From positions 1 through 20,070 of IMG/VR virus record IMGVR_UViG_3300020438_000370: a stretch of 20,070 nt of DNA, one strand, 5' to 3'. Shown here in pieces: positions 11,615-17,383 of this stretch. The notes beneath the pieces were generated by a model, which was given only the letters and a program-made list of their open reading frames with translations, was not told the DNA's origin and searched no databases. Position numbers and translations under genes: made by a program. Within the stretch, counting starts at the first letter, position 1, and every line of letters begins with the position of its first letter. This stretch comes from a virus.

Positions 11615-11784
11615 GGATTTACTACCAACAGACCTAAGCAAGTCTATTTAAACTGCTTATTTTACTATTACAACTTGTCCTTGTGCTGTTATATAGCATA
11701 TATATCTTTATATTAATGTCATACTTACTATACTATATATATATGTTTTTTAATAGCACTTGGGCATAAACTAAAGGAACTATT
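11615..11784 (+). promoter_or_regulatory. Long-stem RNA element upstream of the 61-aa gene
   Basis: A long imperfect hairpin spans 11676-11766: TGTCC with GGGCA (5 bp), a TT/TT internal loop, GTGCTGTTA with TAATAGCAC (9 bp, one G-U), then CATATATAT with ATATATATG (9 bp). A smaller hairpin, TAAGCA/TGCTTA, lies at 11635-11659. No T-run follows the big stem, so it is not an intrinsic terminator. The next gene's AAAGGA (11773-11778) is just outside the stem, and TCCTT inside it (11678-11682) could pair with that SD. The pairing is seen directly; a regulatory role is inferred. Confidence 0.45.
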
Positions 11785-12365: not shown

Positions 12366-12632
12366 GGTTTGGACACAATTAATTGTTTAGTAGTTAATGG
12401 TTTAATAAAATAAACAATAACCGTTCAAGCCCTTAAAGATTAAGGATAGGTATTGCCAGCAGATTACTGAGGAGTTATTCTGTGTTATGGCTCTATCCTT
12501 TACTTTATGGTTACAAGCAGAGTTTAAGAAACTCCAACACAATATATTAATACTCTCGATATATAGTCACTAGTAAAAAGCCTCTGTAACCATATTAATT
12601 TAACTATAATAATAAATAACAAAGGAAACAAT
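12364..12632 (+). promoter_or_regulatory. Gap with three tandem nested stem-loop elements
   Basis: Three modules follow one another. A: AGGGTTTGGAC (12364-12374) pairs with GTTCAAGCCCT (12423-12433), 11 bp with two G-U, enclosing ATTGTTTA/TAAACAAT (12382-12389/12411-12418). B: AAGGATAG/CTATCCTT (12442-12449/12493-12500) encloses GCCA/TGGC and a CAGA..TACT/AGTTA..TCTG hairpin with a GAGG loop. C: ATGGTTACA/TGTAACCAT (12507-12515/12585-12593) encloses a GAGTTT-AAG-AAACTC hairpin (12520-12534). A TATAAT (12605-12610) precedes the 36-aa gene, but the -35 is poor. A structured non-coding or leader RNA is suggested. No known RNA family is recognised. Confidence 0.45.
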
Positions 12633-14137: not shown

Positions 14138-14268
14138 GTCTTATTATTGTTATATTTAAACAGTATTTTAGGGATATTAAGGGACTCAGTTGTTCTATGT
14201 AAAGGGGTTTATTTAGACAATGAGTTATACATCTGTGCTGAGTCCTTTATAATTATAAGGAAAAACAA
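14138..14268 (+). promoter_or_regulatory. Structured leader before the nuclease gene, possible SD switch
   Basis: AAGGGACTCAG (14179-14189) pairs with CTGAGTCCTTT (14238-14248), 11 bp with one G-U. Immediately inside, TTGTTCTA (14190-14197) pairs with TAGACAA (14214-14220) with one bulge, and ATGTA (14197-14201) can pair with TACAT (14228-14232) to make a pseudoknot-type topology. The 3' arm includes TCCTT, which can instead pair with the next gene's AAGGA (14257-14261) through TCCTT.ATAA/TTATAAGGA. The two folds exclude each other, as in a translational switch. Pairing is seen; switching is inferred. Confidence 0.45.
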
Positions 14269-16126: not shown

Positions 16127-16401
16127 TGGGAAGAATAACTATAGCAGAAATGGAAGACCTAAAGAAAAAAGGTTTGCTTGATAATAAAGCAGTAGAAGAA
16201 ATGCAGAAAAGTGGTATTGTTGGTACAAGAAGAAGAGGAATAAGAAGATACATGAAAGATGGTAAAGGGAATCAAGTTACACCTCAATTATATTTTAGAG
16301 GTCTTTCTAAAACTGGAGAATACTCAAAGAAAATGACAGAGTTCAAAGATGAATTCGTTAAACTAGTAAACAAATACACAACAGAAGGGAAAAATAAATG
16401 A
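16126..16401 (+). CDS. 91-aa basic hypothetical protein
   Basis: The product begins MGRITIAEMEDLKKKGLLDN and has a basic GTRRRGIRRYMKDG stretch (about 32-46) and a helical end. This suits a nucleic-acid-binding or recombination accessory protein, but no domain is recognised. The initiation region AAAGGAAAACAATA recurs before several genes of this operon. It overlaps the SSB-like gene by four bases. Confidence 0.65.
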   Translation: MGRITIAEMEDLKKKGLLDNKAVEEMQKSGIVGTRRRGIRRYMKDGKGNQVTPQLYFRGLSKTGEYSKKMTEFKDEFVKLVNKYTTEGKNK

Positions 16402-17012
16402 AAGATGTAGGTGCTACATTCGATAAGTCAAAACAAAGTTACTTACCAATAGAAGCTGGTAAATATCCAGCACATATTAGTTCTGTTTATGAAAGAGAAC
16501 TTAATACTAAAGCAGGTAAAGCTATTGTTGTTAATATGTCTTATGATATAGCAGAAGATGTTAAAGACATTACTCAAAAAGTCTATAAGATGGATGGATA
16601 TGAGTATGAGTTAAATGCAGATGGAAACAAAATACCTGTTAACGATAAAGACGGAAAACCTGTCTTAGCAGCTTGTAAACATCTGTCAGGTAAACAATTT
16701 AGAGATAATGGTACTTTCTTATTCTTAGAAGAAAAATCAGCAGGTAAGAATGGTAGATATTATAGTCTATTACAGAATCTCGGAATAGAAATTAAAGAAG
16801 ACGGAAAGTTACCTTTAATAGAAGAAGAAGATGTAGTAGGTTTACCTGTATTCATTACTTTAAAATCTGAAACTTATGTTACAAAAGATACTAAAGACTT
16901 GCCAGAAGCTGAACAAGAAGTAAGAACAGCATGGAAAGTTGATAAAGTAGATTCATGGGCAGATGGTGTTAAAGTAAGCAAAGAAGAAATGGAAGAAGAC
17001 TTACCATTTTAA
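16398..17012 (+). CDS. SSB-like single-stranded DNA-binding protein
   Basis: This 204-aa protein shows beta-rich segments alternating with basic turns (GKYPAHISSVYERE, GKAIVVNMSYDI, then a long basic loop) and ends in MEEDLPF. An acidic C-terminus finishing in (D/E)(I/L)PF is the hallmark of SSB proteins (bacterial DDDIPF), which use it to recruit replication and repair partners. Together with the neighbouring nuclease and annealing protein, a DUF669-like ssDNA-binding role fits. I see no clear Pfam-type signature in the core, so the call rests on tail and context. The SD AAGGGA lies before the ATG. Confidence 0.7.
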   Translation: MKDVGATFDKSKQSYLPIEAGKYPAHISSVYERELNTKAGKAIVVNMSYDIAEDVKDITQKVYKMDGYEYELNADGNKIPVNDKDGKPVLAACKHLSGKQFRDNGTFLFLEEKSAGKNGRYYSLLQNLGIEIKEDGKLPLIEEEDVVGLPVFITLKSETYVTKDTKDLPEAEQEVRTAWKVDKVDSWADGVKVSKEEMEEDLPF

Positions 17013-17155
17013 ATTAAATCCTTTTATGTAGCAAAAGGACAGGTGGCAATAAAAAAATGTTCATCTGGAGTTGGCTGGGTTTTGGCTACAAATAATGTTA
17101 ATTTTGGTAAAGTGGGCATTATTCAAAACCCAAAATTTTAAAAGGAAAAACAAAC
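17013..17155 (+). promoter_or_regulatory. Riboswitch-like structured leader with pseudoknot and duplicated SD
   Basis: Hairpin 1: TCCTTTT (17019-17025), loop ATGTAGC (17026-17032), AAAAGGA (17033-17039), 7 bp perfect. Helix 2: TGGGTTTTG (17076-17084) with CAAAACCCA (17124-17132), 9 bp perfect, stacked on AATAATG (17091-17097) with CATTATT (17117-17123). The six bases bulged between those helices, GCTACA (17085-17090), match loop 1's TGTAGC perfectly (6-bp pseudoknot). AAAAGGA recurs at 17140-17146 as the next gene's SD, so the TCCTTTT arm could pair with either copy. Helices are directly visible; function is inferred. It overlaps a 12-codon upstream ORF (17057-17095). Confidence 0.5.
17057..17095 (+). 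CDS. Candidate 12-aa leader peptide (aromatic-rich)
   Basis: Within the structured leader, ATG at 17057 opens MFIWSWLGFGYK then TAA. AGGTGG lies 10 bases before it. Five of twelve residues are aromatic (F, W, W, F, Y). It spans the 5' arm of helix 2 and the pseudoknot strand, so a ribosome here would disrupt both. A leader-peptide attenuation role is speculative; the ORF could be chance in AT-rich sequence. Confidence 0.25.
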   Translation: MFIWSWLGFGYK

Positions 17156-17383
17156 ATGACAAAACAATTAGAATCAGTAACTATTAAATTTACAAAAAAC
17201 GAACTTAGACTTTTAATTAGAGCTTTATATGTAACTAAAAAAACAAATATGCTTTATGCAGAATGGACATCTAATGAATTATGGGAAACACCAGACCAGT
17301 ATGCCATAACAGCGTTTAGAGCATTATCAAAAGATTTAACAAAAATTGAAAATAAAATTAGAGAGGAGGAAGGTCTTGGGTAA
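17156..17383 (+). CDS. 75-aa hypothetical protein
   Basis: The product begins MTKQLESVTIKFTKNELRLL and has a basic helical centre with LLIRALYVTKKT and an acidic end (KIENKIREEEGLG). No family is recognised. The start has the strongest SD region of the operon (AAAAGGAAAAACAAAC), and this SD may be masked by the upstream RNA element. Its end overlaps the start region of the next gene. Confidence 0.65.
   Translation: MTKQLESVTIKFTKNELRLLIRALYVTKKTNMLYAEWTSNELWETPDQYAITAFRALSKDLTKIENKIREEEGLG

Follow-up and report, generated by a model that had tools for sequence, protein, structure and literature searches.

The 143-nt non-coding gap at positions 17013-17155 of the window, i.e., the whole 20,070-nt stretch of viral DNA analysed here, lies on the + strand between p204 (16398-17012) and p75 (17156-17383), within a compact + strand operon. 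Our preferred reading, to which we assign a probability of about 0.4, is that this gap encodes a sense-strand RNA module occupying a slot after p204, a probable member of a class of intergenic RNAs that carry GUUGGC, and an intercistronic mRNA element recognised by a protein. The features on which the argument draws are as follows.

16398..17012, + strand: p204, predicted SSB-like, with a predicted OB-fold and an acidic -EDLPF tail; the RNA slot follows p204 in relatives
17019-17025/17033-17039, + strand: P1 hairpin, UCCUUUU/AAAAGGA (TCCTTTT/AAAAGGA as DNA), loop AUGUAGC, read from the sequence
17027-17032, + strand: pseudoknot strand 1, UGUAGC, exact complement of 17085-17090, the same in all variants
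17040-17045/17062-17067 (span 17040-17067), + strand: P1b hairpin, CAGGUG/CAUCUG, A-rich loop, part of the MFE structure
17070-17075, + strand: GUUGGC motif in the window RNA, common to intergenic RNAs of relatives
17076-17084, + strand: P2 5' strand, UGGGUUUUG as RNA and TGGGTTTTG as DNA, no changes among variants
17085-17090, + strand: pseudoknot strand 2, GCUACA (GCTACA as DNA), 9 nt 3' of GUUGGC, no changes
17091-17097/17117-17123 (span 17091-17123), + strand: P3 hairpin, AAUAAUG/CAUUAUU (AATAATG/CATTATT as DNA), 19-nt loop
17124-17132, + strand: P2 3' strand, CAAAACCCA, flush with P3
17140-17146, + strand: SD-like AAAAGGA of p75, which could pair with 17019-17025; the ATG of p75 is at 17156
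17156..17383, + strand: p75, a small protein family with 34 homologues, not consistently linked to RNA
12440..12502, + strand: family A RNA, a copy within the window in a gap other than the p204 slot, located by covariance model

A sequence read and a rescan showed that all four pairings proposed by the sequence-only reading, i.e., P1, P2 (TGGGTTTTG/CAAAACCCA), P3 and the pseudoknot, are exact, and that AAAAGGA indeed occurs twice without mismatch, in the P1 hairpin and as the SD at 17140-17146. The folding comparison that it had suggested also came out in its favour, with an MFE of -32.1 kcal/mol (z -2.69) that none of 200 dinucleotide shuffles equalled (-23.4 +/- 3.2). The fold as a whole needed revision: its helices are exact, but the computed MFE structure differs from it, with TCCTTTTA paired with the SD and P1 not formed, and the P1b hairpin had been missed. 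The SD-free model comes to -29.8 before the pseudoknot is counted, about 2 kcal/mol above the MFE, and the pseudoknot, taken as a 6-bp duplex, would contribute about -6.5, which places the SD-free and SD-paired states close in energy. In a scan of approximately 750 kb of related loci, and of the same sequence reversed, for a hairpin whose loop pairs with a bulge between two stacked helices, the window ranked first with a score of 31, the best reversed control reaching 27. At a looser cut-off the reversed controls gave 15 matches versus 8 forward, and the layout alone is therefore not overwhelming; a topology scan of the relatives returned no second example of it.

In the collections searched, the window-type RNA is represented by three distinct sequences, namely that of the window (identical to L004), that of L003 and a variant shared by L001, L064 and L065. 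Between the window and L064, none of the 44 positions in P2, P3 and the pseudoknot has changed and the 23-nt SD leader is identical, beside 7 changes among the 19 positions of the P3 loop; four genes together show 28 differences at 200 fourfold sites (14%), against which 0/44 in the helices gives P = 0.0013. P1 is shortened from 7 bp to 5 bp in L001/L064 through changes in both arms that keep the pairing, and contains one U-G wobble in L003. P1b has been rebuilt in the L001/L064 variant, with an added U-A pair and with G-U to A-U and A-U to G-U exchanges; judged by base pairing, these wobble changes make sense on the + strand only and are consistent with a + strand RNA. Since the window RNA folds better than its shuffles, keeps P2, P3 and the pseudoknot unchanged, and alters P1 and P1b while still pairing, it is very probably a real sense-strand RNA structure. 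On the proposed check for compensatory change, P1 re-pairs, as does P1b, P2 and P3 stay unchanged in close relatives, and the pseudoknot shows no covariation among window-type variants; because it never varies, it is backed by conservation instead. When 2.9 M viral contigs were searched with patterns for P2 and the pseudoknot, the known close relatives were recovered and the rest were chance matches; a covariance model of the window RNA gave three strong matches only, so neither approach found homologues outside the close group. The L001 variant contains 1-nt indels, and since such indels between variants leave no conserved peptide, a protein-coding origin of 17013-17155 was ruled out.

For the wider comparison, relatives were collected with the neighbouring ERF-like gene, yielding 76 loci, mostly syntenic, down to 48% identity. 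p204 has 65 homologues and matches nothing in Pfam or PHROG. Foldseek matches of its AF2 model (pLDDT 89.5) were weak, with PrgE and OB-fold SSBs at the top, and its C-terminus carries an acidic -DLPF/-DVPF tail, as in SSBs; from the weak structural matches and the tail we infer that p204 is SSB-like. Of the 61 relatives that could be assessed, 49 have a non-coding gap of at least 64 nt directly 3' of p204. A distant clade with 11 members has its next gene touching or overlapping p204, and a weakly similar gene, a probable p75 homologue, directly follows p204 there with no gap. Approximately 18 of the 34 p75 homologues follow the slot; elsewhere, 11 of 15 overlap or abut another gene without an RNA, and the other four are not cleanly resolved. 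Because the slot follows p204 in most relatives and p75 elsewhere mostly lacks the RNA, gene order indicates that the RNA slot is tied to the 3' side of p204 and not to p75. The sequence-only reading had placed the RNA before the 75-aa gene as its possible regulator, a link that these data do not support; its broader proposal, a candidate new phage cis-regulatory RNA, survives as a structured phage RNA conserved in close relatives, but not as one bound to p75.

Slots of the relatives fold well relative to shuffles (mean z -2.6 versus -1.0 for a coding control), and antisense slots fold nearly as strongly (mean z -2.2) because stems fold on both strands. Some folded RNA, of differing design, occupies the p204 slot in about 80% of the relatives examined, and these folds are probably real and unreported. 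A scan for sigma-70 promoters and terminators returned nothing of use on the + strand around the window RNA; as it has neither a + strand promoter close by nor a terminator, this RNA most likely belongs to a polycistronic mRNA. Among cultured phages, the region has no DNA or protein relatives apart from approximately 30% identity to the ERF-like gene in Polaribacter phages. One relative resides on a contig binned as Flavobacteriales, but the strong AAGGAG signal argues against a Bacteroidota host.

The slot RNAs fall into unrelated designs, comprising the window type, family A, group E and others. Family A occupies the p204 slot of L066, L078, L085, L119, L124, L125 and L150, and occurs also in L139, L141 and L144-L148 at differing intergenic sites. 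An invariant core, UAGGUAUUGCCA ... UAUGGCUCUA, which can also be written UAGGUAUUGCCA-stem-UGYUAUGGCUCUA, lies between covarying stems, with 25 double-sided cells versus 6.0 in shuffled alignments, 97% paired, and 0/500 shuffles as high; with its covariance model, 751 kb of sequence yielded 15 strong matches, at 51-74 bits. As family A stands in the slot of other genomes and at 12440-12502 here, the gap that a module occupies differs between related genomes. Group E fills the p204 slot in the L070-L106 group (e.g., L089 7288-7386, just upstream of the SD), and its long closing helix carries compensatory changes. Its two long helices overlap on GAGGG and cannot both form fully, pointing therefore to a bistable switch or a pseudoknot. 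None of these designs has a counterpart in Rfam; searches of the window RNA, family A and group E at gathering and permissive thresholds gave weak matches only, the strongest being that of group E with a eukaryotic microRNA family (E 0.008, 22.9 bits versus a cut-off of 50).

Across 252 same-strand intergenic gaps, GTTGGC was seen 31 times versus 4.9 expected (about six-fold), and its reverse complement 3 times versus 3.9 expected in the same gaps. A strong closing stem, with its 3' arm starting 3-17 nt after GUUGGC, is present at 22 of 42 distinct sites, compared with 2/210 shuffled flanks and 4/190 random intergenic positions; both the enrichment test and the closing-stem test were devised after the data had been seen. 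The closing stems are unrelated in sequence from site to site (e.g., L126 5809, L104 5163 and L102 8077), and intergenic GUUGGC, mostly in loop-like positions, appears about once per 10-kb locus, with exactly one in 26 of 50 loci and none in 18. On these sequence patterns, we take the GUUGGC-carrying intergenic RNAs to be a class in their own right. The window RNA carries a sense-strand GUUGGC at 17070-17075, and its pseudoknot helix closes 9 nt later, in the class position; it is without the long (9-13 bp) closing stem of the class and has the 6-bp UGUAGC/GCUACA helix in that place. Given this one motif (AUUGGC instead of GUUGGC in L064), the 6-bp helix in the class place and weak matches of the window-RNA model (E 0.2-1.4), several of them at GUUGGC gaps or sites or in slots, the window RNA is likely a divergent member. 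A more far-reaching proposal, which we put forward tentatively and with the odds against it, is that an undescribed RNA class displays GUUGGC on changing, exchangeable scaffolds, often in the p204 slot, to bind one specific partner, the window RNA being the pseudoknotted version.

In mechanistic terms, the preferred reading would place the window RNA inside a polycistronic early phage transcript, as one of several unrelated exchangeable modules in the slot after p204 in a marine phage lineage, where it may act post-transcriptionally as an intercistronic element. A putative phage or host protein or RNase would recognise it through GUUGGC; the element could stabilise the end of the p204 mRNA or bring about its processing, and may insulate the downstream mRNA or set its translation level. 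In the window genome, the P1/pseudoknot and SD-paired states might also tune p75 locally. Counting against this reading are the small number of window-type sequences (three), a pseudoknot that does not covary, and antisense folds nearly as strong as the sense ones. The catalogue of structured phage RNAs is poor, and a fixed slot where unrelated RNA folds stand in for one another, several of them not in Rfam and one strongly covarying, offers a starting set for new phage RNA functions, in which the window RNA is one data point; what recognises GUUGGC is a question that can be tested.

The earlier statement that no known riboswitch family fits agrees with our searches, as the window RNA belongs to no Rfam family and has no match above the gathering cut-off at either gathering or permissive thresholds, and searches of the open-access literature found no description of the window RNA, family A or group E. 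The DUF2815 RNA (RF03084) gives sub-threshold matches to the SD-proximal halves of both the window RNA (E 2.3) and group E (E 0.58), at 16-17 bits where the gathering score is 41; they most likely reflect a shared SD-like 3' end. The preQ1-II and SAM-II riboswitches and the T4 gene 32 leader are H-type pseudoknot translational regulators with the strand order S1-S2-S1'-S2' close upstream of the Shine-Dalgarno sequence. The window RNA shares this strand order and position, yet it follows an SSB-like gene instead of leading it, is not tied to the downstream gene and has no Rfam match. GOLLD RNA (RF02032), a structured non-coding phage RNA present in two related contigs, is far larger, sits in another place and has no sequence relation to the window RNA. 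Its copies lie at L077 2809-3213 and L119 1221-1635, several kb upstream of the ERF-like gene.

The window RNA does not look like a switch for p75. A cis-regulatory switch, in which TCCTTTT either joins the P1 AAAAGGA, with the pseudoknot formed and the SD left free, or pairs with the SD itself in an off state, in response to ligand, protein or temperature, is an unlikely alternative. In its favour, only a few kcal/mol separate the two states, the SD is paired in the MFE structures of the window and L003, a 5-bp version occurs in L001, and the SD leader is unchanged among variants. The mimicry of the SD by P1, as noted earlier, would permit switching in the window and L003 and, more weakly, in L001. 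Against the switch, the SD pairing weakens in L001, where P1 is re-paired; moreover, the slot follows p204 and not p75, and the closing stem of other slot RNAs usually lies upstream of the SD. We also consider it rather unlikely that the stretch gives rise to a separate small RNA, processed or independent, that acts in trans, e.g., on a host RNA or protein, by displaying GUUGGC. Such an RNA would accord with roughly one loop-like intergenic motif per locus, with a motif that stays while scaffolds vary freely, and with the precedent of phage-associated GOLLD in related contigs, but neither promoter nor terminator bounds the window RNA, the p75 SD follows directly, and 18/50 loci lack the motif.

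A chance fold of drifting intergenic spacer, devoid of function, appears improbable: the pseudoknot layout alone does score 27 in reversed sequence, but invariant helices beside drifting loops and a slot that is conserved throughout the lineage and holds structured RNAs argue otherwise. It is very improbable that the element works at the DNA level, as a replication, recombination or packaging site extruding hairpins, since wobble-compatible changes and a GUUGGC bias specific to the coding strand oppose the hints offered by adjoining recombination and SSB-like genes and by folding of both strands. The pistol ribozyme (Rfam RF02679) raises a further alternative, a self-cleaving RNA that cuts the p204-p75 mRNA. 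Pistol RNAs, reported from bacteriophage DNA too, combine three stems with a pseudoknot that joins the P1 loop to the left P2/P3 junction, and their right-shoulder junction of strictly conserved 2 nt holds the cleavage site (PMC4604425). The window RNA has its stems and pseudoknot in this pistol order (PMC4604425), its P1 loop likewise pairing with the left P2/P3 junction, but its right-shoulder junction is 0 nt (17123/17124 flush) versus 2 nt, a 36-nt P1-P2 linker holds a hairpin, and the pistol covariance model (conserved core) gives no match at E<=10, nor does any ribozyme model match; self-cleavage is accordingly the faintest prospect considered here.

Other elements were seen beside these RNAs. 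In gaps of the same operon, the window contains more stem-closed RNA-like elements on the + strand, at 12366-12431, 12507-12597 and 14178-14249. A TTTAATAnCACTTGGGCATAAACTTTA-like conserved block at 11739-11775 of the window recurs at L064 2681, L067 2361, L099 2766 and others; it follows an AT-rich run upstream of early genes and may be a phage promoter or an RNA element. Finally, GGACTCCGCATCG is conserved inside a closing stem in L074, L077, L079, L136 and L137, and the stem is followed by a T-run in L074, L136 and L137.
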